Positions 8,476 to 58,129 of a stretch of 64,000 nt of DNA are shown here, piece after piece (within the stretch, counting starts at the first letter, position 1; every line of letters starts with the position of its first letter). The position numbers and the translations under genes were made by a program. Below the pieces are notes generated by a model. That model was not told the DNA's origin and searched no databases. It saw nothing but the letters and a program-made list of their open reading frames with translations. This DNA comes from Actinomortierella ambigua (lineage: Eukaryota; Mortierellomycota; Mortierellomycetes; Mortierellales; Mortierellaceae), in the NCBI GenBank assembly GCA_016098155.1, contig JAAAJB010000010.1, positions 63,429 through 127,428 on the forward strand. Direction: 5' to 3'.

Positions 8476-8784
8476 TCAAAGGCAATGAAGGAGCTGGTAG
8501 CACAATCACGCTTTATCAGCAGGTTGTGATCGATAATTAGACAACAGCTAACCTCTCTGGACGCTGGCAATCTCCTTATCGAAAGTTCAATTCGTCAACA
8601 AAACGACGGCGTGTGTGTGTTTTTTGGAGGTCATTTTTTTTCCTGCGCAGAAGTGGGCAGAGCATATCCTCAAATCCTAGATGTCATCCACGTCAACGGC
8701 GATTGAGAAATTTTTGAAAGTGAGAGGGGATGACAACAATGTCATCACAGAATCCACTTTCACATTTCGGATTCCTCGCTCATT

Positions 8785-11178
8785 ATGACCCATCTGGTAA
8801 GCATTATTCTCATCTCATTCCCTTATCCACTACTTTTTTTCCTGCTAGATGTGAGTAGATACTTCCCCGTTGACCCTAGTACACACCTCTTAAAAAATGT
8901 AAAGTTAGGGGATTGGCCGCAGCAAAATGCCCATACCACCAACCACCATGAATCTGAGAACCTCGACACAATAGCTCAGGCCGCTGTGCTAGCAAGAGAT
9001 CTTGTAGACTCGGATATCCAGTGCGCCATCAAAGAGAACCTGCGTTGCGCCTATTACTGGCACCAAAACGCCATGCACCGCGGCCCATCCAGGTGCCAAC
9101 ACCAAGACGACCCAATTGCTCATCTACCCAAAGACGTTGCCCAGGCTGTGCTCCGGTTTCGTGAGGTGGCTGAGCAGGCGTACGCCAATGCCCGGGCCAA
9201 GATGGCACTGAAAGAAAAGGCGGAAGACGCATATAGAGCTTGCAAGGCTGTCTATCAATTGCATATCGAAGCGCACTACACTCTGGGGACGATTCATCGA
9301 CAAGGCGATTCAAGACACATCCATTTAGATCTCACCAAAGCCGTAGCTTGGTTCCGCAACGCCGCACAACGGCTCCAAGCGCAAGCACAGCCCGATCTCA
9401 GCCAATCTCTTGCAGGCGGTCAAGGCATGATCGAGAAAGCTACCAAAGTCGCAAAGTCGAGTCATGGCCAGGAGCTCCACAGAGATGTCTCGACAACAGA
9501 GCCCCTTTGCATGTGTGACAATCGTGTGCCCCTGACCCTGCCGTGGGACGATGTTGAGACGGTTCGCCTATGGAGGTCATCCGCCCAACAAGGAGACATG
9601 AATGCCCAGTTCGGCCAAGGGGTGTTATGCCGCCTCGGCCAAGGAGGGTTCGGACAGGACGATCGCCTGGCAGCTTGGTGGTGGTGGAAAGCGGCTGACC
9701 AAGGCCATGCCGCAGCTCAGTACCTTTTAGCCGGGATGTACAAGGCAGGACTTGGTGGACTCGAGCGCAGCGAGCACAGGTCCGTTTCCTGGTATCGTCA
9801 GGCTGCCAAGCAAGGCCATGCCATGGCATTGAACATGCTGGCCACTATGACCGAAAATGGTCAAGGAGGGCTCGAGAGGGACCCTGTCCAGGCTGTCCAG
9901 TGGTACCGTCAAGCTGCTGAGCATGGGCTGGTGCAAGCGCAGAACAACCTTGGAAGAATGTACGAGTACGGCCGAGGGGTCAAAAAGCCAAGCCATGCAG
10001 AAGCCATGCATTGGTATTTCCAGGCGGCTCAGCAAGGGGATAGGCACGCTCAGTTCAGTCTCGGGCGGCTTTATCAGGAAGGGTTGGGCGTCGAGGAAAG
10101 CAATGTCGATGCCGTGGGTTGGTACCGGAAGGCGGCAGAGTCAGGATGCGGAGAGGCACAGGTCAACCTTGGAAGGATGTACCAGCACGGGAAAGGAGGG
10201 CTTGAGCAGAATGCTGAGGTGGCCATGCATTGGTTTCGCATGGCTGCGGACCAAGGACTTGCCATCGCCCAGTTCAACTTGGGCATCATGTTCCAGCACG
10301 GTCGAGGGGTGAGCGAGACGAGTGACGTTGAGGCAGTGGTATGGTATCGTAAGGCTGCTCTTCAAGGCTTTGCCCCAGCGCAAAACAATCTAGGATGGAT
10401 GTACCAACATGGCCGAGGCGTGGGGCAAGATGATATCCAAGCCACGATCTGGTACCGTCGAGCCGCCGAGCAAAGCCATGGGACGGCCCAGCCCAAACTT
10501 GGGTGGATGTACGAGTATGGACGCGGTGTCGAACAAAACTACCGGACAGCCGTTACGTGGTATCAGAAAGCCGCTGTCGCCGCTGTCTATCCACATGTTG
10601 GAAGCGCTCAGACGCGGCTTGGGTTGGCATACTTACTCGGAAGAGGTGTAGATGAACAGAGCAACACCAAGGCCCTGGAGTGGTTCGGTGTGGCTGCCAA
10701 GAACGGACATGCCGAAGGTCAGTTCAACTATGGGTGGATGTTAGGGAAAGGTCTGGGCGCGGTCCAAAGAGACGAACAAGAAGGCTTTCAATGGATTCTC
10801 AAGAGTGCCGAGCAAGGATTGGAATTGGCATTATTCATTACTGGATCGCTCTACGAGTTGGGGGTGGGAGTCGAACAGAGCGATGAACATGCGGCGGCTT
10901 GGTTCCGCAAGGCGGCTGAGCAGGGCGATGCCGATGCCGAATTACATCTCTTGGGCATGCGGAACAGAGGTCCACAGACTTCAAAAGGCAAAACCAACCC
11001 CGTCTATCAGCTCCTTGAAGCAGCAGAGCAAAGAGACGCGGCTGCAGCCTACAACCTAGGAACTTTTGAGACGGGCATCGGGGGTGTTTCAGCAGATCGT
11101 CGTGTGGCATCATTGTGGTACGGTCGAGCAGCAGATAGAGGGCATTCCCGATCCAAAGTACGGGCCTTCTACGCATGA
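8785..11178 (+). CDS. Sel1-like repeat (SLR) protein, 797 aa
   Basis: A single uninterrupted frame. The N-terminus carries a hydrophobic stretch (residues about 4-23, LVSIILISFPYPLLFFLLDV) that may be a signal anchor. An alpha-helical region with weaker repeats follows to about residue 250. Then come about 14-15 Sel1-like repeats of 36-38 residues, for example AVQWYRQAAEHGLVQAQNNL and GRMYEYGRGV, with the consensus A-x-x-W-Y-R-x-A-A-x-x-G-x-x-x-A-Q-x-x-L-G-x-M-Y-x-x-G-x-G. The Sel1/TPR superhelix is a protein-binding scaffold (Hrd3 and chitin-synthase activators such as Chs4/Skt5 are fungal examples), but this protein has neither the C-terminal CaaX box of Chs4 nor the Hrd3 layout, so its partner is unknown. 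The start is uncertain because the first ATG overlaps an intron-like GTAAGC...CTAG segment. Confidence 0.8.
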   Translation: MTHLVSIILISFPYPLLFFLLDVSRYFPVDPSTHLLKNVKLGDWPQQNAHTTNHHESENLDTIAQAAVLARDLVDSDIQCAIKENLRCAYYWHQNAMHRGPSRCQHQDDPIAHLPKDVAQAVLRFREVAEQAYANARAKMALKEKAEDAYRACKAVYQLHIEAHYTLGTIHRQGDSRHIHLDLTKAVAWFRNAAQRLQAQAQPDLSQSLAGGQGMIEKATKVAKSSHGQELHRDVSTTEPLCMCDNRVPLTLPWDDVETVRLWRSSAQQGDMNAQFGQGVLCRLGQGGFGQDDRLAAWWWWKAADQGHAAAQYLLAGMYKAGLGGLERSEHRSVSWYRQAAKQGHAMALNMLATMTENGQGGLERDPVQAVQWYRQAAEHGLVQAQNNLGRMYEYGRGVKKPSHAEAMHWYFQAAQQGDRHAQFSLGRLYQEGLGVEESNVDAVGWYRKAAESGCGEAQVNLGRMYQHGKGGLEQNAEVAMHWFRMAADQGLAIAQFNLGIMFQHGRGVSETSDVEAVVWYRKAALQGFAPAQNNLGWMYQHGRGVGQDDIQATIWYRRAAEQSHGTAQPKLGWMYEYGRGVEQNYRTAVTWYQKAAVAAVYPHVGSAQTRLGLAYLLGRGVDEQSNTKALEWFGVAAKNGHAEGQFNYGWMLGKGLGAVQRDEQEGFQWILKSAEQGLELALFITGSLYELGVGVEQSDEHAAAWFRKAAEQGDADAELHLLGMRNRGPQTSKGKTNPVYQLLEAAEQRDAAAAYNLGTFETGIGGVSADRRVASLWYGRAADRGHSRSKVRAFYA

Positions 11179-16243: not shown

Positions 16244-18742
16244 TTAGCAGACAGGCACACAGACACTCAGACCACCTTGAGAGGTTTCCTTGTACTTGGC
16301 CTGCATATCGTTGCCCGTCTGGCGCATGGTTTCAATGACTTGATCCAAGGTGACACGGTGATGGCCATCGCCGTTCAGAGCCAGCTGAGCCGCTGTGACA
16401 GCCTTGACGGCACCGAGGGCATTCCGCTCGATGCACGGGATCTGGACAAGACCATCAATGGGGTCACAGGTCAAGCCCAAGTTATGTTCCATGCCAATCT
16501 CGGCCGCGTTCTCGACCTGCTGCACCGTGCCACCCATGACGGCCGCAAAGCCTGCCGAGGCCATCGAGCACGCCACGCCGACCTCACCCTGACATCCCAT
16601 CTCTGCCGCCGAGATCGATGCGCCTCGCTTGTACAACATGCCGATCGCTGCCGTCGTCAACAAAAACTCCATGATGTCCTGTTCGGGGTTGTCGGAGATG
16701 AATTCCAGATAGTACTTGAGCACAGCGGGAATCACACCCGCAGTCACCACGCGTCCACCGGCTGCGTTCTCCTCGTTGACGGCAATCGCATACACGCTCA
16801 AATAATCCAGTGCCGGCAACATCAGGCGCTTGACGGACCGACGTGGGAGCACCCGGTCGATACCACGTTCGGGTTGGCGGGCCAGCGCCCCCGAGTCGTG
16901 GACAGAGTTGGAGTGATGTCCCGAGGCTGCAGAACCCATCGGTGTGGTCGAGTACAGGCCCTTGAGCAACTTTTTGTACAGGCCAGGTGCACGACGACGG
17001 GCCTTTAGGCGTCCAGGCAACATTTCCTCTGTGGAAAGACAGCCGTTCTTGATGGCGTTGTCCATGGTGTTCCAGATGGCAAAGGTCTTCTCGCGAATCT
17101 CGGCCGCAGACCGCCACCGCAGCTCGTTCTCGTAGACGACCTGGGCAATGGTCATGTTCTCGCGCTGGCAGAGTTCCAACAGCTCCTGGGCATTCGTGAA
17201 TGGCAAGGCTGCGGGTGCCAAGTCCTGTTGACGACGGGTCTGTGGGATGACCTTGTTGTTTTTCGTCGTCTGGTCTTGCTCGCCCTTGTAGAACACATTC
17301 TCACCATGGGCAAGCTGGGTCCGCTCGTTGACGACAAAGCCACCGCCGATGGAGAAGTACTCGTTCGTCGCCAGGAGATCGCCTTGGTCATCAAAGGCGC
17401 AGAAGCGCATGCCGTTTGGGTGCTGGGGCAACGACTCGAAATAGTGGAAGACGAGGTCCTTGGCCGGGTCAAACGTGATGCGACGGGTCGAATCCAGCGT
17501 CAGGGCCTTGTTGTCGCTGATGGCCTTGAGTCGCGACTGGATGGTGGTTGTCTCGACCGATTCCGGCGATTCACCCTCCATGCCCATCAGGATCGAGTCT
17601 GGTGTGCCGTGTCCGATGCCCGTCAACGCCAACGAGCCAAAGAGATCGATGCGCAGCGACGCAACCTTGTCCAGTACTTTGTGGTCCTTGAGATCTGTCA
17701 CAAAGATCTTCGCTGCTCGCATGGGCCCTACCGTGTGACTAGCAAAAACATGCAAAAAAAAAAAAAATATGGGTACAAAGAAATGTGGGGGAGAGGCGAG
17801 GTACATCCGCGAGAGAGAGAGAAAAAGAAAAAAGAAGGTTAGTCGAATCAAGCGTGTGGATGCATGGGAAAAATGTTCGCATGGCACCTTAATTATGGCA
17901 GTAGTAGAACGCTTGTTTTTTATGTTGGGGAAAGCGAGGGGTGTGCGTAAAGGGAAAGAAAATGAAGGGGGCGGGGGCAAAGGAGAGAGGAAATGTACGC
18001 TTTGGTTTGGTGTGAGAAGGGCTTCTTTAGTGTGGTGTTTTGGGGGAGGAGTAGTGCCATTGGGGTGGGGGGGGGGGAAGGGGCTTGTTGAGAGCCTTCA
18101 AGATGCTTCTACTCCCGTGTTTCCATGGTTCAAAGAGAGCGAGAGAGAGAGATAGAGAGATAGAGAGAGCGAGAGAGAGAAAGAAGGAAGGGAGGGAGAG
18201 AGAAAGCATGGAAGGAGAAATGTGGTTGCCGTTTGCCAGGGGAGGGGTCTTTTTATAGACACACTGATGCGACCACATATCAAAAAAGCAAGCATTTTTT
18301 ACCTCGAGCTGGGTCCAATGCCAATCGAAAAGAGGTCAAAGGTTGAGACGACAGCATGCTTGGTCTCTTCCTCGGGTGGTGTGCTCTTGCTGGTGGTTTC
18401 CTCAGAGACGGTAGCGGGTACAGGGCTTGTGACCGCGGGATCGGCACAACGTGCTGATGACGAGAAGAAGCTAGTCTGGATCGCCTTGGTCAGGTTCAGG
18501 GTATGATGCTGGGGCAGTGCAACGCGGTGGCGTAGAGCAGCATGGAGTGGAGGGGTGAACCGCAGACGATGAAGATTACTGTAGCTGTTGTTTGGCAGGA
18601 GGCCGTGCAATGCACGCTTCTGGGACGCCGCTACTGATGGTGTGGGTGGGACAGTGCGTGTGAGCGCCTTGGACGTTGTGGCATGGAGCTGCTGCTGGAA
18701 GCTATGTCGAAGGGTAAAGGTAGCGTTGAATGCAGACGACAT
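16244..18742 (-). CDS. L-serine dehydratase, iron-sulfur type, single chain (SdaA-like)
   Basis: Exons (minus) 18742-18303 and 17738-16244 give 644 residues. The enzyme converts L-serine to pyruvate and ammonia using a [4Fe-4S] cluster rather than PLP. The first 130 residues are rich in Ser/Arg/His and lack acidic residues early (MSSAFNATFTLRHSFQQQ), which fits a mitochondrial presequence. The splice junction falls inside the family signature [20 protein letters not shown] and restores it exactly. The C-terminal alpha domain shows AEMGCQGEVGVACSM, then GLTCDPIDGLVQIPCIERNA, and ends in Cys after YKETSQGGLSV. In this family the three internal Cys bind the cluster and the terminal Cys enters the active site. 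Most fungi rely on PLP serine dehydratases, so this bacterial-type enzyme is notable. The 564-base intron holds a GA microsatellite. Confidence 0.92.
18131..18206 (+). repeat. GA-rich microsatellite in the serine dehydratase intron
   Basis: A run of GAGA and GATAGA units within the first intron of the minus-strand serine dehydratase gene (a CT-rich tract on its coding strand). Confidence 0.8.
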
Positions 18743-33347: not shown

Positions 33348-34372
33348 TGTGAATGCTTGAATGTAAATGAATGGGGATGATGGAGAACAAAAAGTGGAGA
33401 TAGTGCCAAACCTTGTGTCATTTTATTGTCTTGCAAGGCCTCACTCTAAACCGCAGCGGTGTGAGTGCCTCCCCTCCCCCCCCCCCCAAAAAAAAAGAGG
33501 GCCGATCATGACTCGCAGCAGCTTTTCCTGAGATGGGAGTGGGCAGACATCTGTACACATTGGTGGTTGCTGTGCTCAAAAGATGACCGAGTCTTGCGCC
33601 TTCGTTCACGCTTCCAAAGCTTGGACACAAATATAACCACTGCTGTACTAGGACACAAACCTTGGGTTGTGTGATCATGTACTGATAACGACGTGCGCAG
33701 TCCACAGGTTGTTCTGCCATCAGTGACCAATGGGCTAGTTATGGTTGGGAGAGGGGGGGGGGAAGTTGATACCATACATGTATGGTGAACCTTGGCACTG
33801 TTGACAGTACACACTCAGTCAGAACTGCAGGTGACATGGGGAAGAGGGAAGAAGGAAGAGGGAGAGGAGGAAATCATGAAAGTCTTGTTGCAGTGAGTTG
33901 GCAACAACAGCCCTGCCAGAGCATGAATGACCTCTGGCGCTAAACTCTAAAATAATAGCTCAACGCGCTAATTCTCTGCAGGCTACAACAACGTCCTTTG
34001 GCAATCCTAAGCGACATTCGTTGCTGCAGACGCCCCTGCCTATGCTGAATGGCCCATAGGGCGCGTTGATTTATGTGTGTGTGTGTGGGGGGGGGGATGA
34101 TCTTACTGCTCTACATTCCGGCAACCACAAATCTTTACTATGGGGCTTCGCAATGTCAGTGCCCGCCCCAAGACCGGACCAACCAATTTGATTCTCTCTT
34201 CCCCATCTATCTCTCTTCCCTTCTTTCATCTTTCTTCTCAATCATCCTTAACTCATTCCTTTGCCTCTCTCGTCTTTGTCTATATTGTTGTCTTGCTCTT
34301 TGAACACATCCAAGTGCTGCTCTTTTTCAGTCTTTGCCTCAGCAACACCTCTCCAGCGAAAAACGGCCGATC
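33348..34372. other. Intergenic, divergent promoter region
   Basis: Between the GPP-like gene and the first wax-synthase-like gene. It contains a TG repeat with a G run (about 34072-34096) and a CT-rich leader from 34190 that may include a 5' UTR intron ending at TTTCAG near 34330. No gene recognised. Confidence 0.5.
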
Positions 34373-35761
34373 ATGGATATGAGCAATCCTCCTATGCACA
34401 ACATTGGATTTGATCCCAACGACCTCCCGCCTCGTTCAAAGCCTTTCCAGTTGTTCTACTTCTCTCCCCAAAGTCTGGAGGGTGTCGTCAACCATCCAGA
34501 TGGTATTTTCCCCGTCTCATTGCCAACAAACACGTACCTCATCATCCATGCCTTAACTGTCCTGTCTCTTTACTTGCTCCTGTGCGTCAAGTACTTTTCA
34601 TGTCGAACCAAACAGCTTTTGGCTCTGCCGATACTTTTGGGGCTGCTAGCCATGCCCATATTTTTCACTGCTTCCAGTCACCTGATTCATCTCATTTGCG
34701 CACTCACCACTTCATGCTATGTAATGCGCTTCATCGACATCTACTACCTCAAGCCATGGACGGGCATTAGGAGTTATTACAATGGCCAGCATTCATCACA
34801 TCAGGTCAGGAGTCAACCAAGTACAGCAGGCTCCGAAAGCAAGGAGGGCGAAGAATGCGAGGAGAGCTCAGATGCGCACGAGTGGCTGATGTGGGACAAG
34901 GAGAGGTTGCGAACGGAGCTCTGGGCCTCCGTGCGGAAGCTACCAAATGTCAGCCACGGTGCTTCAGAGCCCAGAGGCGTGGCCGTGGCGACGATAGTAC
35001 CGTATGCGCTGGTGTATATCATTGTCGGAGACGCTCTACTCCTCAGCATCACGGATGCCCGTATAACTGATTTGGATCGATTGAGTCCAACGGCACGGCA
35101 GATACTGCTGGCCACTGTCGGAGGTGCTACCATAGCCTTGATGATGCTCTATTTCTTTTATCTCATTCTTTTCGGTTGGGTGATTGTGACACGGCAGCAG
35201 ATCATCTATCCATCAGAGTGGACCATGACTAGCCACCGCTTTCCGCTGTTTGCCACTGACCCGGCCGATTTTTGGTCTCAATGGCATACGCTGTTCAAGT
35301 TTGTTTGGGTCGATTTCGCATACTTTCCTCTTCGACGACTCGCTCAGCGCTTCATGGACTCATCCAGGACAGGCTCCAGGGCCCTCTCCAGGGCCCTTGA
35401 GCTCGCTCTCCCTGTCCTCGGTGTCTTCTTCCTGTCCGGTGTCTCGCATGGTTTCTGCATCTGGGCGGCATGGCGGGCACCACCGTCGTCGCAGATGAAC
35501 TATTTTTTGGTTCAAGGGTTGGCCGTGATTGTCACCAAGGGATTTCAACAATCGTCGCCTGGCCGTCGCTGGTCTAGAGTCTACCACTCTCAATCAGAAC
35601 GACGGCGCAAGTGGATCGATCGTGCAGGGATGATAGCCATGGTAGTGTTTCACATTTTAACCGCACCTCCGTTTATCGAACCATATGCCAGGCATGAGGT
35701 GTGGCTTGGGCATCGCTCACGGAGTGTGCTTTGGCACCTTTTTGTAAAGCACTGGGCATAA
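34373..35761 (+). CDS. Wax-synthase-like membrane-bound O-acyltransferase, tandem copy 1
   Basis: An intronless frame of 462 residues. Several hydrophobic helices occur in two blocks: residues about 50-120 (LIIHALTVLSLYLLL, LLALPILLGLLAMPIFFTAS) and 205-275, then a C-terminal block. Between them sit MRFIDIYYLKPWTGIRSYYN and a soluble loop. The catalytic part has HRFPLFATDPADFWSQWHTL followed by VLGVFFLSGVSHGFCIWAAW, with the candidate active-site His near residue 359. This F-W-x-x-W-H plus S-G-x-x-H-G arrangement matches wax synthase (MBOAT_2) proteins, which transfer acyl groups to alcohols or sterol-like acceptors in the ER. The acceptor is unknown. It is closely related to the next gene, sharing the PMH-x-x-x-FDP start. 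I preferred the ATG at 34373 over an upstream in-frame ATG at 34334 because it matches the paralog's N-terminus. Confidence 0.8.
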   Translation: MDMSNPPMHNIGFDPNDLPPRSKPFQLFYFSPQSLEGVVNHPDGIFPVSLPTNTYLIIHALTVLSLYLLLCVKYFSCRTKQLLALPILLGLLAMPIFFTASSHLIHLICALTTSCYVMRFIDIYYLKPWTGIRSYYNGQHSSHQVRSQPSTAGSESKEGEECEESSDAHEWLMWDKERLRTELWASVRKLPNVSHGASEPRGVAVATIVPYALVYIIVGDALLLSITDARITDLDRLSPTARQILLATVGGATIALMMLYFFYLILFGWVIVTRQQIIYPSEWTMTSHRFPLFATDPADFWSQWHTLFKFVWVDFAYFPLRRLAQRFMDSSRTGSRALSRALELALPVLGVFFLSGVSHGFCIWAAWRAPPSSQMNYFLVQGLAVIVTKGFQQSSPGRRWSRVYHSQSERRRKWIDRAGMIAMVVFHILTAPPFIEPYARHEVWLGHRSRSVLWHLFVKHWA

Positions 35762-37088
35762 TCATATCGAGTAAATTAAAGAAGATGCTTCACAAGATGC
35801 CATGCACCATGGAATCAAGCGCAGTTGCTAGGGTTACATCTGAGAGGCGAGTACAATGTAATAGGAGGTGTCTGTGCGCATAAACATGAGACAACACGAG
35901 GATGAAGAGCGCAGAATAAGTACGTAGATCGATGTGTTCCATGCACATCTTGATCCTAAGCTCCATAGGCTGTATTGCTTTGGGTGGAGTGCAGATCGCA
36001 GCGACTAGCATCTTGAACGGTCAGTCCATCTTGTCACATGCCATGACTGCACACTGGATTCCCAGCGACTCGTCGAATCTCCCCATTGACGACAGGAACA
36101 AAATTCATCGTGATCTTCGCCAAAGTCTCCTTACGCCTTTATGCGGTATGTTGGGCCTCATGCAAGCGACACTGGTTATCTCGGTACAGCACTTGTTGCA
36201 GGTTGTCGACTATATTTAATCCATTATTGGCAGGCCAACCAAGTTGATTAGGATAACTGACCTTCTAGTTTTTGAACAAAAAGACGTCCGCAAGATGCTT
36301 TCGGACCTGCTTGATCTAATCGTTTATGAAGTCCCGCATGCCAAGCTTCGCATGCCTTCAGGACGCGTGTGATTCTCACTTGGCATCGTCAACCAGCTCG
36401 TCACACATAGTACTTTCCAGTCCACTAACTAAGTCACCTTGAACAACGCCATCGATCACACAACTGAGCATGTGAAGCTTGATCTTCGAAATAAAACACG
36501 CACAAGAATGTGTCAGGAGAATAAAAAGGTTGTGATAACTATCTGAGAGGGCTGGCTTATATCCAAAGTGGCAAGATATCGTTCTCGTGCGGCCAGCAGT
36601 CGGGTTTTATGGGTATGACCTTGTACAAACTACTGTCACACCCGATATCGAGCCGATCGTGGTCGAATGATTCCATGTTCTCAGAATAAATGGTTGTGAG
36701 CGTGCACGATATGCTTCACAGAGAGTAAGAACTACTTGTGGCTCCGGTAGTCTCCCGAACTACCTATTTTCAGCACGAATGCCGTTTGTGAGTAAACGAA
36801 TGGAATTACGACCTTTGGGATGGGTGGCAACTTTGATGGTGACATGGACACGAGCAAATACTTATTTCCATACCTCATTGCTTTCATGATGTGGATTTGA
36901 ACTGGCGCCCCTCATGGGAGATCCTTTTTGCTGATTTGCTCCATCTGTTTTCGTCCTCTCTTACCCACTCTCTGTCTTTGTTACTCGTTCGCTTCTATTT
37001 GGTTTCTAGTGTCACTCAGTGCGACGTGCCTTTAACTTCATTGTCGCTTCGCTTCACATACCCACGTACACAAACACCAACACAGACC
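35762..37088. other. Spacer between wax-synthase copies 1 and 2
   Basis: About 1.3 kb. A 95-residue plus-strand frame (35932-36219, ending LMQATLVISVQHLLQVVDYI) has hydrophobic segments but no recognisable family; it may be a relic or chance. A TC-rich leader precedes copy 2 from about 36940. A tRNA B-box-like string near 36890 was rejected. Confidence 0.4.
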
Positions 37089-38588
37089 ATGAACACCAGT
37101 AGTCGTCCGATGCACGACCTGTGGTTCGATCCCTATGGCTATCCGCCTTGCTCGGGTTCGTACAAGTCGCGCTTCTTTCCGTCCTGCACCACAGTCGAGC
37201 CCTTCAACCCACTCACTGGCATCTTCATCTCCTGGCCGACAAGTATTTACATGGCTATCCATACAGCAACCACAACGGCTCTCTACCAGCTCCTACTTTC
37301 AAAGCACCTGTCGAGTCGAGCTAAGCAGATAGCTGCACTACCATTGCTGGCCTGGCTACTAGTGATGCCTGTCTTCTTCACGCCGTCCAACCGCCTGTTC
37401 CACCTCATTTCTGCCGTCACGAGCGGCTCCTCGGCGATGCGCTTCATTGATCTCTACTATCTCAAGCCATGGACGGGCATGAGGAGCTACTACAATGGCC
37501 AGCTTTCCGCCTATCGCACCAAATGCGAAAATACCGTCGTTGTTGGGGACAAGAACGAGGATAAGAACGGCAAAGACAGTGATAAGCGTCTCCGTTCCCG
37601 ACTCGCAAGTCCTACGTCCAACACCAGCGGCGCCTCAGATCAGCTACGAGTACCGCATGATTCTGGTCAGCGAATGGAAGCGAGCAAGGGTGTGGCGCTT
37701 GACGAATGGCTCATGTGGGACAAAGAGCGGATGCATATCGAAATGTGGGCTCCTGTTCGGCGGCTAGCGAATGTTGGCAGTGCAAGTGGCGATGCACCTA
37801 CAGCAGGCGACCAAGGGGTTCACTGGACATCGCTCTTGCCCATCTTCTTGATCTATGCTGCCGTGAGTGACATCATTCTATATGTTATCTCAGAAGTCCG
37901 CGTTGCCGTCGTGGAGCGAATGAGCAACATCCAGTACCTCCTGTTCATATGCGCAGGAGGAGGAGTTATTACACTGAACATGCTCTGGTTTTTCTATATT
38001 GTCCTCTTCGCATGGGCCATTCTGACAGGCCAGCGTGTCCGTGCCTCTGAATGGACGATGATTAACCATCGGTTCCCGCTGTTCGCGACCGATCCCTCCG
38101 ACTTTTGGTCGCAGTGGCATACATTGTTCCGATATATTTGGGTCGATCTGGCCTTCTTCCCTATCCGGAGGTTCGCTCAGCTGTATTTAGGCCCACAAAG
38201 AACAGGGTCCAAGGCGATTTCCAAAGCGCTGGAGGGCGCGCTTCCCGTTCTCGGTGTGTTTGTCTTGTCGGCGACCTTGCATGGATATATTGTTTGGTCG
38301 ACATGGCGTCTGTCACCAGTATCTCAGTGGGTCTACTTTATCATCCAAGGACTAGCGGTGGTGGCCACCCGAGGATTTCAGCAGACGAAGCCTGGTCAAC
38401 GTTGGTGTCGATATTATTATGCACGATCCGAGCAAGAGCGCAAGTGGCTCGATCGTGTGGGAATGTTGGCCATGGTGGGATATCACGCTTTGACGGCACC
38501 TATTTTTATTGAACCCTATGTGAGGCACGCATTGTGGCTGGACGTTCGCCCGCGAAGTGTGCTGTGGCTTCTCTTTGGCAAGCTTTGA
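37089..38588 (+). CDS. Wax-synthase-like membrane-bound O-acyltransferase, tandem copy 2
   Basis: Intronless, 499 residues, beginning MNTSSRPMHDLWFDPYGYPP, where the ATG has a good ACC context. It parallels copy 1 along its whole length: MRFIDLYYLKPWTGMRSYYN, EWLMWDKERMHIEMWAPVRR, NHRFPLFATDPSDFWSQWHT and LPVLGVFVLSATLHGYIVW, with the candidate active-site His near residue 398. The variable Asp/Lys/Ser-rich loop after SYYNGQ is longer than in copy 1. Copies 1 and 2 clearly arose by tandem duplication and then diverged; both keep the family motifs, so both are probably functional. The likely site is the ER membrane, as for other MBOAT proteins. The substrate is unknown. Confidence 0.8.
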   Translation: MNTSSRPMHDLWFDPYGYPPCSGSYKSRFFPSCTTVEPFNPLTGIFISWPTSIYMAIHTATTTALYQLLLSKHLSSRAKQIAALPLLAWLLVMPVFFTPSNRLFHLISAVTSGSSAMRFIDLYYLKPWTGMRSYYNGQLSAYRTKCENTVVVGDKNEDKNGKDSDKRLRSRLASPTSNTSGASDQLRVPHDSGQRMEASKGVALDEWLMWDKERMHIEMWAPVRRLANVGSASGDAPTAGDQGVHWTSLLPIFLIYAAVSDIILYVISEVRVAVVERMSNIQYLLFICAGGGVITLNMLWFFYIVLFAWAILTGQRVRASEWTMINHRFPLFATDPSDFWSQWHTLFRYIWVDLAFFPIRRFAQLYLGPQRTGSKAISKALEGALPVLGVFVLSATLHGYIVWSTWRLSPVSQWVYFIIQGLAVVATRGFQQTKPGQRWCRYYYARSEQERKWLDRVGMLAMVGYHALTAPIFIEPYVRHALWLDVRPRSVLWLLFGKL

Positions 38589-40021
38589 GAGAAAGAGAGA
38601 GAAAGAGAGAGAGAGTATGCAGTATTCGCTTTCTTACTATACATGTAGAGAAAATAGAGAGCATCTCGTGGGCCTCGGAAGCCTTCGATGCAATTAAATT
38701 TCCACCCTGGCGCGGGAGAAAGGGCTACCGGTGCACGTGTGCAGCAAACGGACATTGTGCAAACGGGGTGAATTCTTATTCATACAGCTGTTGTGCGCAT
38801 GAAGGGAGGGGAGACAGCATGCAAGTCGACAGAACAAACCCCTCTGCTTCTCGCTTCTCACAATTGATGGAGGAAAAAAGGCGGGGTGGAGTGCTGAGCA
38901 GCATTAGGGTCAGCAGCAGGGTTTCCCCTCTTTCTGATCTCAGCAGAACCAGCGAGCCTCGAGGTTCAAAAAAGGCTTATTTTTGCTTACACATCGTCCA
39001 TAGGGTTTAGCTATCCGACGAGAATCCGGAGAGAGGGGGGATGAGGGGATTACCCAACATGTGGAGACGGCTACATGTTTTTCTTAACTTGGTCAAGACA
39101 CTGCATCGGAGTGATGTGTCCATGCGACCAGAGAGCGACGATGTGGAGAGCAAATAGACACATGTTGCTCAAAGCCAAGACCCCATATATGATATAGGTT
39201 CAAGACTTGACTGAGCCACAGAACTCGGCTCGCTTCGCTCCTTCCTTCCGCGCGGGTGGGAGCCAGAAATTTCTCGCCGTGATGGATTCTTCAGGCACCT
39301 GAATTCTACTACCTGTGGGAAGCCGAGATAGACACAGTTTGGTGAGTGGAGAGTGGCTGTTGATACTGCACACTTATGAAGTCCGACTGTCCTAATCTTG
39401 GACAAACAGACAAACAGACACTATTTTCTCACCCCGCTTGCCTTGGACACGCATTTTTTTTTTTTTTTTTTTTTTTTTGCCTTGACCTTGACCTCAACCA
39501 TCTTGTCCTACAGGAGAAAGGGGTCATGTCAATTGTCTGCAGGAAAAAAAAAGAGTCTTTTCTTGGCAGCGTCGGTGTCAATGGTACCTCGTCTTGCCAA
39601 GACGGGAAAAGATGACCCCAAGAATAAATAAATCAGGTAGGTAGCAGGCCATCATATACCACAAGCAGGGACAAGGATTAGAAGCGTCTACCGACCCGGA
39701 ATGAACTCACAAGCTTTAGACCTGTGCAAAGGCCACCTTTCTATTTTGATGTTTGCCGTGCGAGAGGGCGCTCTCAAAGATATCATTTTGTGATAAAATG
39801 ATTGTTATCACGTATCGAGCACATGTCAGAACCAGGGGGAGGGGGAAATATAAAATGTTCCGCCCGAACCCAAAACTTTTACAACCTTTACTCTCCTCTA
39901 CCCACGCTTTCTTCTGATACCCCTCGTTCCCTTACTCGCCAGCTTTCTCTTCTTCCTCCTGCCTGCCTAACGGCCTTTCCCCTCCCTTCCCCTCCTTGCA
40001 CACCACCACCACAGACTCGCC
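38589..40021. other. Spacer between wax-synthase copies 2 and 3
   Basis: About 1.4 kb. A GA repeat follows the stop of copy 2 (38588-38615), and a poly-T run sits at 39453-39478. No gene is recognised. The promoter of copy 3 lies at the right end. Confidence 0.5.
39849..39855 (+). promoter_or_regulatory. TATA box of wax-synthase copy 3
   Basis: TATAAAA, 167 bases before the start codon at 40022, followed by a CT-rich leader. It is inferred to be the core promoter. Confidence 0.55.
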
Positions 40022-41503
40022 ATGGAGGTGCTAACTCATTCAACAGCGCACGTCCTCAGCACCTTGCGAGATCTTACAAACTCGCAAACCTTGTTCGACA
40101 AGCTACCTCAACAGCTGCCGGTCGCTCCAGTCGATATGGGTCCGCCAAACGTCAACATGATCGTCCTGCCCAACGCCTACTACTTTTCCATCTTTTTCGT
40201 CTTTGGAGGTGGCCTGTATCTCATGTTGTTGACCCCCTTCACCTTGCGCCAAAAGCAGGTTGCTGCAGCACCTCTTATCTTCTTCCTCTTCATCCTGCCT
40301 TTGATATTCACTTCTGATAATGCACCACTCCTTCAACTTACGCATGTGGCTGCCTGCGTCTCGGTCATCATGCGCTCTCTTGACCTCTATTACATCCGGC
40401 CTCTACGTACCGGCAAGGAGCCAACCATGGATTTTGATGACTGGTGGTCCGAGTGCTGGATGCCCTTTCGCAAGGTTCCAATGACCAAGAGGCAATTGCA
40501 GCGGCGTGAGCTTGAGATGACGCAGGAACGCATCCGCCGTGAGAACGAGAAGGAGCAACAACTGCAGCGCCAAAAGGGCAAGGAGGTGACGAAGAAGGAT
40601 GATGGTTCGGACAAGAAGGACGAACAGAGCAGCATCAAGTCGTCGAACAGCGCTCCCCCAAAATCTTCGCCAGCAGACGCTGACGAGAAGCTGACGCGCG
40701 GCAAGCCTGCTCGCCTGTTCTATACGCAACCGATGGACCCCAACCCCAAACATTGGAGCGTCTATTTGCCTCGCTGGATTTTTTATGCTGTCGCCGTTGA
40801 CCTCATCGTCTTTACTGCTTCCTTCTTCACGCCCGAGCAGTTCCAATCCTCGTATCCTGCCACACTCGCCTATCGCTTTGCTGTTGCCGCCATTGTCATT
40901 TTCGATATATCACTTGCCAACTACACGCTGATGATTCTCTGGGCCAGCGTGACGGGTGACCTTGTCCGCGATACTGAATGGACACTAGTCCGCCACAGGT
41001 TCCCTGGTTTTGCCACGTCGCCCGCCGACTTTTGGAAGCAATGGCACCACCTCTTCAAGCAGGTCTGGGTCGATATCGGTGCCAAGCCGACTTTTGAATT
41101 GCTCCGCAAGTACGTGACTCCAAGACTATCCAAGAATGCTCGTCAACGCCAGCTGGCCAAGAACCTAGAGACGGTTCTTCCTGTGATGGGCGTTTTTTTG
41201 ATGTCGGGCCTCTTCCATGAGTACATGATGTATAGCTTGTGGCACGCAACCCCGGGCCCGATGACCATTTTCTTCTTGATGCACGGTGTCGGTACCTTTG
41301 TCTCCAAAGCTCTTGAGAGAACTGTTGGTCAAAAGGTCAAGCTCCCCACCATTGTACTCATTGCCTTAACGTGGGCCTTTAACCTCACAACCTCGTACTG
41401 GTTCATGATACCAATTCTCGAGCACAAGGGCCACTCCGTCCCCATGCACCAGTGCGTGCTCATTCGTGTATACAACCTTCTCCGTGCCCATCACATTTTT
41501 TAA
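40022..41503 (+). CDS. Wax-synthase-like membrane-bound O-acyltransferase, tandem copy 3 (divergent)
   Basis: Intronless, 493 residues, starting in a CGCCATGG context. It keeps the same architecture as the two upstream copies but has diverged far more. N-terminal helices (YFSIFFVFGGGLYLMLLTPF) come first, then MRSLDLYYIRPLRTGKE. A long charged, coiled-coil-like loop (residues about 150-225) precedes more helices and the catalytic segment HRFPGFATSPADFWKQWHHL. This is followed by VLPVMGVFLMSGLFHEYMMY, with His near residue 399. The SGLFHE form is the more typical wax-synthase version, so this may be the ancestral-type copy. Expected location is the ER membrane. The C-terminus ends on a last helix with no tail. 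Confidence 0.82.
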   Translation: MEVLTHSTAHVLSTLRDLTNSQTLFDKLPQQLPVAPVDMGPPNVNMIVLPNAYYFSIFFVFGGGLYLMLLTPFTLRQKQVAAAPLIFFLFILPLIFTSDNAPLLQLTHVAACVSVIMRSLDLYYIRPLRTGKEPTMDFDDWWSECWMPFRKVPMTKRQLQRRELEMTQERIRRENEKEQQLQRQKGKEVTKKDDGSDKKDEQSSIKSSNSAPPKSSPADADEKLTRGKPARLFYTQPMDPNPKHWSVYLPRWIFYAVAVDLIVFTASFFTPEQFQSSYPATLAYRFAVAAIVIFDISLANYTLMILWASVTGDLVRDTEWTLVRHRFPGFATSPADFWKQWHHLFKQVWVDIGAKPTFELLRKYVTPRLSKNARQRQLAKNLETVLPVMGVFLMSGLFHEYMMYSLWHATPGPMTIFFLMHGVGTFVSKALERTVGQKVKLPTIVLIALTWAFNLTTSYWFMIPILEHKGHSVPMHQCVLIRVYNLLRAHHIF

Positions 41504-41728: not shown

Positions 41729-43184
41729 TTACAGCTCGTTTCCGACAGTGACCCAATAATCTCGAAGGTTATTCTTGCGTCCAAAAATCTCGAGATAGCG
41801 ACCTTCAGGGACGAGCTCTTCAATCATATCGTACAATTCTTCAGGTTTTTGACTTTGGCCTCGGCGTTCTGAAAAGATGACGTCCGATCCAATGGAGTGG
41901 CGGCAGTTGGGTGGGTCGTTACCCTTCTTACCGACCAGACAGGTCTCTTTGGCGTGTTGCAGGTAGTAACCATGTCCCTTCGCCATGCGTCTGTTAACTG
42001 TTTGCTTGACCCAAGTGATGTCGTCCACGTAGCTATGGATCAACAAAAAGACCGTAGGAAGCGGACAAAATGCCTTCATCTTAGCCTCCATCAATTTGGT
42101 TACAAAAGTGAAATGGCTCCTTTGATGCGCGATGAACCACCCTTACCTGTAGCCCCATTTCCGCATGAGATCGAAAGCCTTTGCGTATTTGTTGTTGATG
42201 ACCCAGATAAAGATAAATCCGTTCGAGCTCAGTTTTGGTATCGGCAGATCCTCGATGCAAATATCAGGAAGTTGTTGATAAGCAATGGCGACCTAGGTGA
42301 TGATCACAGACACCCGCCCATGAAATGATAAAAAGGCCAGATCGAGCGAGATTGTTAGACTGGATTTGTTGATTTTTTTTTTTCGTACACACTGCACGCT
42401 GCAACCAGCACGCCGCGAACCAACTGAATAGAAAAAGAAGAAAAAGGGTATCCTTGGTCGCAAATATTGTCAGATTTTGTGTGTCCGACTTACACCACGA
42501 GTTGGGGCGTGAGTGGCAAGCTGCCATGGTGGATCCATGAGGATGACATCAAACTGACACTCAGCCGACAAGCTCTATGAGAAGTTGCAATAAGCAATAT
42601 GTTCGAGTAAAAAAAAACAACAACATTAATTCCCTTTTCGTTTCATATGTCCTGACATTGAGGCGATCCAGCGACAGCATATGAAGACATACATCCCAGT
42701 CAAAGGTCATGACATTGGCTTTGATCGGGACACACCACTCGGGAGCTTCAAACTCCTCGAGATCCCCATCCTCTTCATCACCAGCATCCTCGCCAGAGCG
42801 CCCTTCCTTTGAGTCCTTGTCGTTTTCGCCGTTCGAAGAGCCAAGCGACTTTTGTTGGATATTCGTTTCCAGTTGTTCAATATCGTGGGCGAGCGCCTCG
42901 AGAGAGTCGATTAGCTCTTTCTCACGCTGCAACAGCTTGGCCAGACGGCCACTGCGAGAGAGTGCTGGGTCGTCGCCATTGCCATTGCCTCCGACCTGGA
43001 TACGGTTGTATCGACGGGTGGTGGCTGTAGTGGTGGTAGCGATGGCAGTAGTTCCTGTTGTGCCGGCATTGTTGGTGGTGGTAGTTGTCTGAATGACGGA
43101 AGAAGACTCGGAGACAAATGGCGACGAGGCACGCGAGTCTGTGTCATTGCCACTGTCCGTCATTACAACGTCGGACAGGGTCAT
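41729..43184 (-). CDS. MT-A70 family adenine methyltransferase, MTA1-like (candidate DNA 6mA writer)
   Basis: Exons (minus) 43184-42693, 42574-42494, 42292-42147 and 42032-41729 encode 340 residues. The first 130 are disordered Ser/Thr/Gly plus a short coiled coil (LLQREKELIDSLEALAHDIE). The catalytic MT-A70 domain has FDVILMDPPWQLATHAPTRG, with DPPW at 178-181 split from its partners by short introns, then GFIFIWVINNKYAKAFDLM and VDDITWVKQTVNRRMAKGHG. It continues with AKETCLVGKKG, SERRGQSQKPEELYDMIEEL and finally YLEIFGRKNNLRDYWVTVGN before the stop. The loop after DPPW and the RRMAKGHG stretch differ from METTL3/METTL14 and resemble MTA1, which in ciliates and early-diverging fungi is associated with 6-methyladenine at ApT in DNA. 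The subfamily call is from memory and moderately sure; methyltransferase function is highly likely. Confidence 0.82.
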
Positions 43185-53828: not shown

Positions 53829-56800
53829 CTAGGGTCTGGACTTTGTTGTGCCCACCACTGGCAGCATTGGCTTGAATGACGACGACGAAGAAGATGTGAC
53901 GATAGCCTTGGCAGCAGTGAAGATGGGTGAGCCTGCATCCTCGTCGCTGCCAGTCCACCTGGACTTTCCTTCCGCCACAAGCGAAATGTTGCGCGGTGTT
54001 AGCGCGGGACGTAGCGGGACTACTGATTTCAGACTATTGGAGCCATTGTCGCTGCCGCCGCTGTTGCTACCGCTCCAACTTACGGTACCGCTACTACTGC
54101 CATGGGCGATCGCGCTCAAATTGTCGGTAGAACCTTTGTCCTGGACAGGGATGCTTCTAGGTAGCGGTGGGACAGGTGGGATGATGCCGTCCTTGGTGAA
54201 CGAGACGGCGGTCGTGACAATGGCACTAGAGTCCAAGGAGGCGCGGCGCGAGCGGGAAGAAGCTGACGAAGATCTGCGAACCAAGCAAGGGGACGATGAA
54301 GATGGCGATAATGATGATGATGACGGAGAATGGTGCTCCTCTTGGCTAGCCGATCCCAGTGAAATGCTGGTGTTGGTACGAGGGAAGGAAGGGCGCCCGA
54401 CGACGGTCCCGGCCAGCGACGAACTGACACCGCTGATGGATTGCTGTTGTACCTGATGCTTGGAAAGTCGCTTATTGACTTTCCGTTGAGCATCCGTCTC
54501 GGTCGAACTGGTCGCTGTGAACGAGGACGAAGAGGACGAGTAGTAGAAAGAACTGGCCGCGCCGACGGCCAGGGCGGCCAGCGAAGCTCGCGACCGTGGT
54601 TGAGAGTGCGACCGCGACCGTGGGCCGCTATGTGCTGTGGCGACACGACTGCGGCCACTACGACCCCTTGTGGATGACGACGAACCGACTTGCTGCTCCT
54701 TTCCATCAGGGGATGGAGAATCGCGTGGTGAGTTATTCAGCGAAAGAGAGGAAGGTGTGTAAGGGAAGAGTGCCGGTGAGTTCGGAAGACTTGGTGGAGA
54801 CGTCGGAGGTAGCTTGGGCGATGCTGGTGCCGAGTGCGTCGGAGTGATGTAGGCCGAAGGGATATACTGGAAGACAGGCGATGGGGACGGCACCGGGGAT
54901 CCGTACATCGACAGAGTATTAGAAGGCATGATTGACATGCGACGCTGCCGAGGGGTTGGACATTCCACGCCGTTGCTAGTGCCGTTACTGCTGCTGCTAC
55001 CGATTGTGTTGTCCAGCACCGATGGGGGCATGGTGAGCGATACAAAAGAACCATTGGCGGAAGGCGTCGAAAAGGCCTGTTTAGCGGGACCCAGGAAAGG
55101 CGTCGATGGTGTCGACTTTGAGGTTGATGAACCAGGCATGGGCATATCAGCAGATGGAATGAACGACATGGTTCTGGACTTGAGATTGCCGTAGCTCACG
55201 CTGTTGCGAGGCTTATGGTCTTTAGATTCATGCATGCTGGCGCGGCTGGAACGGGTGGGCACGGCTGAAGTCGACTTGCGGTTCTCTAGTTTTGGGCGAG
55301 TCTGTGGCGCGAGATTGCTTGTGGTAGTTTCCGTCAATTGAACTGGCGACAAGATGAGTGTCTCTACCGAGGCAAACTCTTCGGGGACTTTGGGCCGTTG
55401 CGTGAATGGGACAATGCCTAGATTCTCGAGCTGCTCACTATCGAGCCACCACTGGGAGCCCTTATCGACCCGGGGGGTCGAAGACAGGCCGAGCGGATGA
55501 ACCACCAAACAATCTTCATCCGGCTGCAGTTCATCTGAAACGTAATCGGACGTCGTGGACTTGGAGGACGTGGACGTCGCCGAGCCATCCGAATCCACTG
55601 AAGAGGCCGACCCTACTGAGATTGTCGATACGCGTCGCCTCCGGGCAGCAGGTTGACCCAACTTGGGCTGGGATCGTCTGTCGCCGACTGAGATTTGCCG
55701 TGCAAGATTGAGCGAAAGATAGGTTGCCGGCTCTGAGGTCGATAGTCGCCCTCTGACTGCCACTGTGATCTCAGGATCGTCCAATGCCATCGCCGCGGCG
55801 CGATACTCGGCTGAGGCCCTGGGAGACAAGCTGGTGTCGGCGTCCATGTCTTCATGGGCCGTTCTGAATGTTTTTGCGTCTTCATTATCTTGGTCGTCGT
55901 CCACGTATACAATTTGAATCGGAGGTTGGTGCAACTGCAATTGGAGTTGAGGTGGCCGATCGTAGTCATTGTCGCTCTGGTTGCTCATGTCGGTATCCAG
56001 CTGAGAAGTCTCGTCATCCGTGAGGTCGTTGAAGAAGTAATCGTGCGACCACTGCTTCTCCTTCATGTCGTGTTGATCGCCACCATTGTCGTCATCATGA
56101 TCATCTTTCAGATGCTCCTCCACCACAGCTGCTCCCTCTTCGACCGGTTGGTGATTTTCTCCTTCTTCAGCTGCCTTGGAAGCATCGGCGCGAGGACCAC
56201 CCCACGTTCGCTCGTTGGCAGTCCAGACTCCGTAGACCAGTAGAAACCAGCTAACGATAGGGCCGATGATGAACATGATTGGATACAGCCAAGCCTTTCT
56301 TCGCCCCAGCCAGATGCCGTAGGTGAGCATAAGCATCCAGTTGGTAAGGAAGTAGACACCCAGCAAACTCAACCACACCCATGACATGTTTTGGGTACCT
56401 GTGATGACTGCCACGATGATGAGGTACGCAATCATAGACGTTCTAATTGTATGCAAACAATAAGAAAAAAGTATCATTGGGAGTTAGAGCGGAGGACGCC
56501 GTGGATATGAAATGCTCCGTACCAGTCGAGAGCCAAACATCGCGATTTTTTTAGATAGCAAGCGAATACCCAAACACAATGTTCTGCAGCATGCGGAATG
56601 CCAGGAGAAAGGGATACTTGCGCCACATCAGAGGGTCAGAGAGCAGCGATGACTCGTTGGTGATGAAGCCTAGGAACCATCTCCGTCTTTGCTTGAGCAG
56701 GTTGCGCCACTCCATGACCGGCTCGGTTTTGCAGGTTGCACGATGACAAAACTGGATCATCTTGGGCCGCTTGGCGCCAGCCATGAGCAGATGAGTTAGA

Positions 56801-58129
56801 TAGCGATCCTCGCCGAGATGAGAGCGTCCAAAATCCCACAAGTCCTTGGCATCGCGCTCGGCGAAATACTCGTCAGAACTCTTGAGAAAGGCCGAATATC
56901 TGAACATCGTCAGGGCGCCTGGGAGACAAATGACACCGCCGACAGCCGACTCGATAGCACGGCCAAAGAACTGGCCATGGACATACTCCATATCTTGTAG
57001 CAGAGCAATGAACGACATATTTTGTTTTGTTGTCACGGTAATGACACCTGTCATACCAAGCATGTCTTTGCGTGAACCCGGCTTGAGCTCCATCTCCCAC
57101 ATGAAGTTGCCGAGCGTGGCCGAGTGCAAGAGTATGTCCGAGTCGATGAACAGTACAAAGAGGTGATCTGTCTTTTCTGGGTAGTCCTTGTAGATGGTTC
57201 CGATCAAGGCAAATGTCTTCTTCTGAGTTAGACGCTTGCCACCGTGGGGGAACCGCGACACGGTAATCTGCACGCCACGGTAGTACAGATCAATCACAGG
57301 GGGGTAGTGCTCGCTCTCAGGAACGCCAAGACTGGCAATCAAAGCCAGGTACAACTCCGAGACGGCGTCGTTGTCAAACGATATGAAGATGTGGACGTGC
57401 TCCTTCGGGTACTCGCCATCAATGACTGAGCAGATGGCAACATGAAGGATCTCGGGCAATTCGTTGTAAACAGGCATGACAATAAGCACCTATGGCGTTT
57501 GTGCAACACATGTATCGCATGGTGAATAGGAAGTTGGGGAGGTTAGGGCGCCGTGAGGTGAAGGATGGGACAGGAGAAAATGAAGGTCAGTCAACCCAAG
57601 CTCTATGCTTCTGCTGAGGGCACAGTGTGTCGATCAGCTTAAGGGATCATCACCTTACCCTTGGAAAGCTAGCTGTATCTCGAATGGATTCAAGGCGCTC
57701 CTTCATGTTACTCGGAGCCGTGATAAGCTGCTGAATACTGATGAATGAGGGGACGATGAGCAGGATCAAGACCAGACTAAATGCGACATAGACACTGGCC
57801 TGCCGAAGTCCATCCGGTAACAGGGCATCGCTCTGATAATGAGGGACCGGGACCAAAGACAGCATGCCAAACAGGAAGATGGCTCTCAGCAACCACCACA
57901 AGACCATGATGAATAGGCTAAGGCATCGCTCACCCCACCGCCTGGCCTTTTGGTGCACCTTGATAAATGCGTACGAGACAGCACCTGTAAAGGCAAATAT
58001 CTCAGCAAACGCCATCAGAGCTAGGATGGCGCCGATGGCGACGTATGTAATCTGCGCTGGCGTCCATGGCGGGATTTCCACAGGAAATGTCGATCCCAGA
58101 AAGTCGTGTCCATCTTCAGTCGCGTTCAT
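53829..58129 (-). CDS. Chitin synthase (Chitin_synth_2 type) with a very long Ser-rich C-terminal tail
   Basis: Exons (minus) 58129-57659, 57489-56570 and 56442-53829 give 1334 residues. The first 157 residues contain about three membrane helices (ILALMAFAEIFAFTGAVSYA, VYVAFSLVLILLIVPSF). The GT2 domain follows: LIVMPVYNELPEILHVAICS, SRFPHGGKRLTQKKTFALIG, DSD at about 273, CLPGALTMFRYSAF, GEDRYLTHLL at about 383 and LLKQRRRWFLGFITNE (QRRRW about 424-428). Further helices then TWGGPRAD end the synthase at about 550. The remaining 780 residues are Ser/Thr/Pro-rich with no domain I recognise. The enzyme polymerises UDP-GlcNAc into chitin at the plasma membrane. The second intron's donor (GTATTC) was chosen by phase. 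It is convergent with, and 150 bases from, the amphipathic-helix gene. Confidence 0.88.

Follow-up and report, generated by a model that had tools for sequence, protein, structure and literature searches.

The closest described systems are the MTA1c DNA methyltransferase of Tetrahymena and the Mta1-Mta9-P1 complexes of Mucor lusitanicus and Rhizopus microsporus. In Tetrahymena, MTA1 is described as the catalytic core, and the methyltransferase (MTase) domains of MTA1 and MTA9 are stacked together (PMC9852454). In Mucor, deletion of mta1 or p1 was reported to abolish all symmetric 6mA sites, and an allele in which DPPW was changed to APPW did not rescue growth; symmetric sites make up merely 0.32% of the Mucor 6mA sites despite the presence of Mta1 (PMC11258239). 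The same study places Mortierellomycota among the phyla with 0.8-3.8% 6mA and reports that the PF02384 MetB family is present in Mortierellomycota, with some exceptions. For Rhizopus microsporus, a 2026 review reports that Mta1, Mta9 and P1 interact and that the symmetric ApT mark is essential (PMC13297926). A 2025 survey found robust 6mA patterns, located downstream of transcription starts, in AMT1-encoding species only (PMC12695648). The gene described here is an expected further example of this system, which is known from related fungi and from ciliates and the general biology of which has already been published. A literature search combining Actinomortierella with methylation returned no paper on this gene as judged by title or the start of the abstract, and a search combining Mortierella with 6mA returned nothing beyond PMC11258239.

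The window, that is, the whole stretch of 64,000 nucleotides that was analysed, corresponds to contig C2:63429-127428 of a 33.8 Mb assembly with 846 contigs. The preliminary description had placed an MT-A70 methyltransferase gene in it, and the limits given there proved to be exact for a four-exon gene on the minus strand, with the ATG reading from 43184 and the stop codon finishing at 41729 (Table 1). The three introns of 118, 201 and 114 bases have the donors GTATGT, GTAAGT and GTAAGG and TAG acceptors. The predicted splice model rests on the sequence together with its homologues. The donor of intron 1 was fixed by alignment with 38 homologues, and an alternative donor adds 12 residues, giving a protein of 352 residues. 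The 352-residue model was the query for the PDB and homologue searches and was used in the 38-homologue alignment, while the 340-residue model was used for Pfam, the trees, residue mapping and motif positions. The closest relatives are proteins of Actinomortierella ambigua and A. wolfii, with 86% and 83% identity, respectively, to the 352-residue query among the best 120 of 783 matches, which points to an Actinomortierella or a near relative (Mortierellomycota) as the probable source. The start, MTLSDVVMTDSGND, is common to both Actinomortierella proteins, and in the MTase part 192 of the 195 residues are identical to those of the A. ambigua protein.

Table 1. Positions of the MTA1 gene, of features of its predicted product and of a second MTA9-type gene; positions are those of the window unless a contig is named.
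Feature	Position	Strand	Basis
MTA1 (AMT1-type MT-A70 methyltransferase) gene, 4 exons, 340 aa	41729..43184	-	homologue-corrected splice model
Exon 1: N-terminal part with long helix and acidic linker, beginning of the MTase region	42693..43184	-	splice model
Exon 2, containing DPPW	42494..42574	-	splice model
Exon 3	42147..42292	-	splice model
Exon 4: AKGHG loop and C-terminal SAM-binding part with the stop codon	41729..42032	-	splice model
Predicted N-terminal helix, residues about 77-115	42840..42956	-	orthologue helix 74-112 transferred by alignment
MT-A70 domain, residues 172-339	41735..42553 (introns included)	-	Pfam PF05063, 133 bits, E 1.2e-38
Catalytic motif DPPW, residues 178-181 (Tetrahymena D209-W212)	42524..42535	-	
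MTA1-type post-DPPW loop QLATHAPTRGVAIAYQQL, residues 182-199, split by intron 2	42269..42523	-	
Interface loop NRRMAKGHG, residues 253-261	41969..41995	-	
End motif YLEIFGRKNN, residues 319-328, with SAM-contact R325 and N328	41768..41797	-	
Second MTA9-type MT-A70 gene (locus L075)	C258, 26266 to beyond 28848	-	missed by PF05063 genome scan

The E value of the Pfam MT-A70 match excludes chance similarity. When the PDB was searched with the 352-residue product, Tetrahymena MTA1 scored 240 bits, METTL3 121, METTL14 58, MTA9 33 and the METTL4-type MTL2 25, so that neither METTL3 nor MTL2 is the closest solved relative. The MTL2 of the solved structure is the Arabidopsis protein, a member of the METTL4 group. 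A profile built from 37 fungal homologue sequences gave the same order, with scores of 303, 136, 63, 38 and 27.5. In the MTase part, 110 of 195 residues (56.4%) are identical to Tetrahymena MTA1 and 73 of 179 (40.8%) to METTL3; the identity is 34.0% to METTL14, 31.2% to the METTL4 encoded in the same genome and 26.4% to its own MTA9.

The preliminary description had singled out two loops as differing from METTL3 and METTL14 and resembling MTA1, and both comparisons were borne out. The post-DPPW loop, QLATHAPTRGVAIAYQQL, is identical to that of Tetrahymena MTA1 at 11 of 18 positions, and the NRRMAKGHG loop, when extended to NRRMAKGHGYYLQHAKE, at 13 of 17. The pattern P.RGVA[IV].[YF] was present in 117 of the best 120 of 783 MTA1 homologues and in none of the best 120 of 251 MTA9 homologues, and AKGHG[YF]YLQHAKE was present in 120/120 and 0/120 of the same two sets, respectively. 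Both loops are thus found in Tetrahymena MTA1 and are nearly universal among the MTA1 homologues listed, whereas the RGVA and AKGHG loops are absent from the human METTL3 and METTL14 rows of the alignment. As we read the alignments, the two loops appear to define the MTA1 family. Human METTL3-METTL14 shares with this system the MT-A70 fold and the heterodimer of an active and an inactive subunit; it differs in having half the bit score and in lacking both loops, and neither of its subunits was detected as a separate gene in this genome.

The DPPW and YLEIFGRKNN motifs were retained, as had been claimed, and the residues around the active site were also compared with the Tetrahymena MTA1 structure. 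Seven of the eight SAM contacts of that structure (PMC9852454) are identical in the fungal MTA1, among them Tetrahymena V183, S332, R357, N360, N370 and E371. The exception is D182, described as contacting the SAM adenine (PMC9852454), which is replaced by N157, encoded in exon 1. Among 37 fungal rows, this position is Asn in 34, Asp in two, both from Rhizophagus, and Ser in one, from the chytrid Lobulomyces. Of the three lysines on the MTA1 DNA surface, two are kept (K280 and K289) and K286 is Arg. With DPPW, both loops and most of the SAM contacts in common, the closest solved counterpart is MTA1/AMT1 of Tetrahymena MTA1c (PDB 7yi8, 8xyl and 7f4l).

A catalytic subunit of this kind would be expected to have partners encoded in the same genome, and a search for MTA9, p1 and p2 had been proposed as a check. 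A PF05063 scan of the genome detected three genes: MTA1, a gene on contig C422 and one on C804. The C422 gene has five exons and encodes an MTA9 of 466 residues with a degraded DPPL motif; its best PDB matches were MTA9/AMT7 (87.8 bits), and among the best 120 of 251 matches it has 91% and 83% identity to two Actinomortierella proteins. The C804 gene is a METTL4 homologue, MTL2 (117 bits) being its only PDB match at an E value cut-off of 0.001. A Myb-domain scan gave 77 matches, of which eight places were read, and a P1 gene was found at one of them, on C31. It has seven exons and encodes a Myb-like protein of 230 residues, which falls slightly below the Pfam Myb cut-off (24.1 vs 24.4 bits). 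A 250-residue P1 query, which includes 20 intron-derived residues and was used for the p1 match, the genome search and the homologue list, matched p1 of Tetrahymena MTA1c with 126 bits (E 1.6e-35), and a 24-row profile headed by the 230-residue model matched p1 with 179 bits. The motifs GQQS and RKN..I.N[TS]G were present in all of the best 120 of 229 P1 homologues, which include proteins of Mucor lusitanicus, Phycomyces and Rhizopus microsporus. Thus, MTA9 and P1 were located. For p2, the P1 query matched only the P1 gene in the genome, a weak test made without a p2 query.

The partner set resembles that of Mucor lusitanicus and Rhizopus microsporus, whose MTA9 and P1 relatives are among the matches listed (P0230, P0154, P0347 and P0276). 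Mucor is reported to lack p2 (PMC11258239), and none was seen here by the weak test above. Mucor has MetB, whereas a PF02384 gene of the MetB type was not found in the search of this genome. Genes for P1 and for a degraded MTA9 are shared with Tetrahymena MTA1c, in which p2 is present. Few of the lysines on the DNA surface of the ciliate proteins are conserved in the MTA9 and P1 of this genome. As read from the alignments, one of three is kept in P1 (K44, K46 and K47 against N55, S57 and K58) and neither of two in MTA9, where K371 and K374 lie opposite a gap.

A separate observation concerns the MTA9 homologues of other fungi. Cytidine deaminase Pfam domains were present in nine of the best 120 of 251 MTA9 homologues, from Coemansia and Dipsacomyces (P0212, P0216, P0218, P0224, P0225, P0234, P0235, P0237 and P0239). 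These proteins are either real fusions or the product of a recurrent merging of gene models.

The MTase region is preceded by a long predicted helix. AlphaFold2 modelling of the A. ambigua orthologue with a 37-row alignment gave a mean pLDDT of 64 and a patchy MTase core, with a single confident long helix at residues 74-112, ahead of the MTase domain as in Tetrahymena MTA1. Foldseek comparison of this MTA1 orthologue model (pLDDT 64) returned Tetrahymena MTA1 chains at ranks 1-19 and METTL3 from rank 20, and the model of the MTA9 orthologue (pLDDT 64) had chain A of 7yi8, MTA9, as its top match; low model confidence limits both comparisons. The modelled helix may be the counterpart of the N-terminal helix (NH) of Tetrahymena MTA1. 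It had been suggested in the preliminary description that the N-terminal coiled coil could pair with a catalytically dead partner. In Tetrahymena, however, the helix is described as binding p1 and p2, and MTA1 from which NH was deleted retains MTA9 binding (PMC9852454), the dead partner pairing through the MTase domain. By analogy, the coiled coil of the fungal protein is unlikely to be the element that binds the dead partner.

Phylogeny of the MT-A70 proteins, also proposed as a check on the assignment, separated the alternatives only in part. In a tree of 42 rows, the 16 MTA9 rows split off (100/100), and METTL3, METTL14, METTL4 and Tetrahymena MTA1, all long-branched, joined next to the fungal MTA1 rows. 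Long branches dominate the broad trees, namely those of METTL14 and METTL4 and, in the 42-row tree, that of Tetrahymena MTA9. A 25-row tree was obtained by leaving out the 16 MTA9 rows and P0033, which was dropped because it has an insert that resembles an unspliced intron. In this tree METTL3 and METTL14 were nested within the fungal MTA1 rows (88/83), and one-clade tests rejected none of the groupings of the fungi with Tetrahymena MTA1 (p-AU 0.184), METTL3 (0.145), METTL14 (0.147) or METTL4 (0.185). When seven of the 21 fungal MTA1 rows, held together, were tested with Tetrahymena MTA1, METTL3 and METTL14 (10 rows), the grouping of the fungi with Tetrahymena MTA1 was best and those with METTL3 and METTL14 were rejected (p-AU 0.0166 each); METTL3 and METTL14 are represented by one row each, too few, and this constrained test gives partial support only. 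Replacing METTL14 by two METTL4 rows gave values of 0.494, 0.594 and 0.0903 in the three-way test, with nothing rejected. Because the trees are indecisive, the classification as MTA1 rests on the scores, the loops and the partners.

The scores, loops, catalytic residues and the MTA9 and P1 genes agree with the original proposal of an MTA1-type MT-A70 protein and candidate DNA 6mA writer. Its product is very probably MTA1/AMT1, the catalytic subunit of a DNA methyltransferase of the MTA1c type, a fungal Mta1-Mta9-P1 complex that would make symmetric ApT 6mA. The gene, its family signatures, the catalytic residues, most of the SAM residues and the partner genes were read from the sequence itself; by analogy with Tetrahymena, Mucor and Rhizopus, MTA1 would assemble with MTA9 and P1, and the complex would write symmetric ApT 6mA in DNA. 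Taken together with the survey of AMT1-encoding species, what is described in those three organisms leads us to expect that ApT sites would be methylated symmetrically close to the starts of active genes, a genomic distribution carried over from other species.

The possibility was considered that the protein is instead an mRNA m6A writer ("IME4-like") that acts with MTA9 ("KAR4-like") and replaces a lost METTL3-METTL14 pair. Several MTA1 orthologues among the matches listed are labelled "mRNA m(6)A methyltransferase" in UniRef-derived names. A published survey reports that IME4 and KAR4 are missing from Mucoromycota except Endogonales and treats the IME4-like and KAR4-like groups of early-diverging fungi as m6A writers (PMC10826363); its main text has zero occurrences of "6mA" or "DNA methyl". 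Judging from the gene complement, we infer that these IME4-like and KAR4-like proteins are MTA1 and MTA9. In agreement with that survey, METTL3 and METTL14 were not detected in the present genome: each query matched only the MTA1 and MTA9 genes and no separate METTL3 or METTL14 gene. A YTH-domain gene, coding for a potential reader, is present at C329:28589-29531. However, WTAP, the cofactor expected of an RNA complex, was not detected in the genome search, whereas the genome does encode P1, the DNA-binding partner, and in Mucor it is the DNA mark that is lost on deletion of mta1 (PMC11258239). Moreover, the YTH reader could be supplied with m6A by the product of a METTL16-type gene on C448, possibly the one m6A writer that is left. 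An mRNA-directed function is therefore considered very unlikely, and the "mRNA m(6)A methyltransferase" labels of the MTA1 group are better read as denoting probable DNA writers.

It is also scarcely probable that the protein, although of MTA1 ancestry, adds little or nothing to 6mA in this species, as in low-6mA lineages. The 6mA level does differ strongly among related early-diverging fungi, but Mortierellomycota are grouped with the high-6mA phyla (both PMC11258239), the catalytic motif is intact and the near identity of the MTase part to the A. ambigua protein suggests strong constraint. A METTL4/DAMT-1-type enzyme is extremely unlikely: METTL4 belongs to the same Pfam family, and the Fusarium literature uses the name MTA1 for a METTL4 homologue (PMC10826363), but the match of the window gene to solved MTL2 is just 25 bits and the METTL4 homologue of this genome is a different gene, that on C804.

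The absences of METTL3, METTL14, WTAP and MetB are provisional, because the assembly is fragmented, the genome searches were made in six frames, exon by exon, and the PF05063 scan missed one divergent MT-A70 member. The analysis nevertheless shows that an Actinomortierella-type genome carries the Mta1-Mta9-P1 gene set while those four were not detected in it, so that RNA m6A and asymmetric 6mA could be expected to interfere little with work on its symmetric 6mA. Other genes related to methylation were a cytosine DNA methylase on C556, with a weak match on C235, and AlkB-type genes on C157 and C558, with a match below the cut-off on C691.

The divergent member that the scan missed is a second MTA9-type gene on C258, which was found with the MTA9 query (40% identity over residues 320-465). 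It was read across four introns and has an intact ADPPW and an MTA9-like C-terminus; the start of the model is not fixed, the first exon reaching the edge of the analysed stretch. A 598-residue part of the protein matched Pfam MT-A70 with 26 bits (cut-off 23.9) and, in the PDB, chain B of 8xyl (67 bits) ahead of MTA9/AMT7 (58.7 bits). Entries sharing this chain name it MTA9-B in their PDB titles, presumably AMT6. Beyond DPPW, the alignment shows a protein without the MTA1 loops. In a two-sequence comparison, the N-terminal part aligned with an ORF on C181 (34.5% over 84 residues, E 4e-14), which itself has a Myb match with an E value of 9.2e-8; Pfam listed no Myb domain in the 598-residue part.

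One conceivable origin of the C258 gene, an old AMT6/AMT7 duplication common to this fungus and ciliates, is disfavoured, the two Tetrahymena rows grouping together. With nine fungal MTA9 rows, the alternatives to this grouping were rejected (p-AU 0.0029 and 0.0024), a provisional result since the ciliate sequences are partial. On this result the C258 gene looks, provisionally, like a separate duplication. Two KAR4-like copies have been published for some Mortierellales (PMC10826363), so a second MTA9-type copy as such is not new; DPPW or Myb-like features of the second copy were not seen in the description given in that paper. It is conceivable, though rather doubtful, that two alternative writer complexes form around the single MTA1, one with MTA9 and P1 and the other with the C258 protein, which would bring an intact DPPW and a Myb-like region of its own at the N-terminus. 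If true, this fungus would have an independently evolved equivalent of the division of labour between AMT7 and AMT6 in 6mA maintenance in Tetrahymena.

Elsewhere in the window, ARAGORN found no tRNA, and Rfam gave no match at the gathering threshold. Open frames with recognizable domains include one on the plus strand with 11 Sel1 repeat matches (8734-11178), one on the minus strand carrying both the alpha and the beta domain of serine dehydratase (16244-18097) and another on the minus strand with a chitin-synthase-type glycosyltransferase match (56551-57489). Adjoining MTA1 are three plus-strand MBOAT_2 (membrane-bound O-acyltransferase) genes at 34304-35761, 36843-38588 and 39971-41503, the middle one scoring slightly under the Pfam cut-off.
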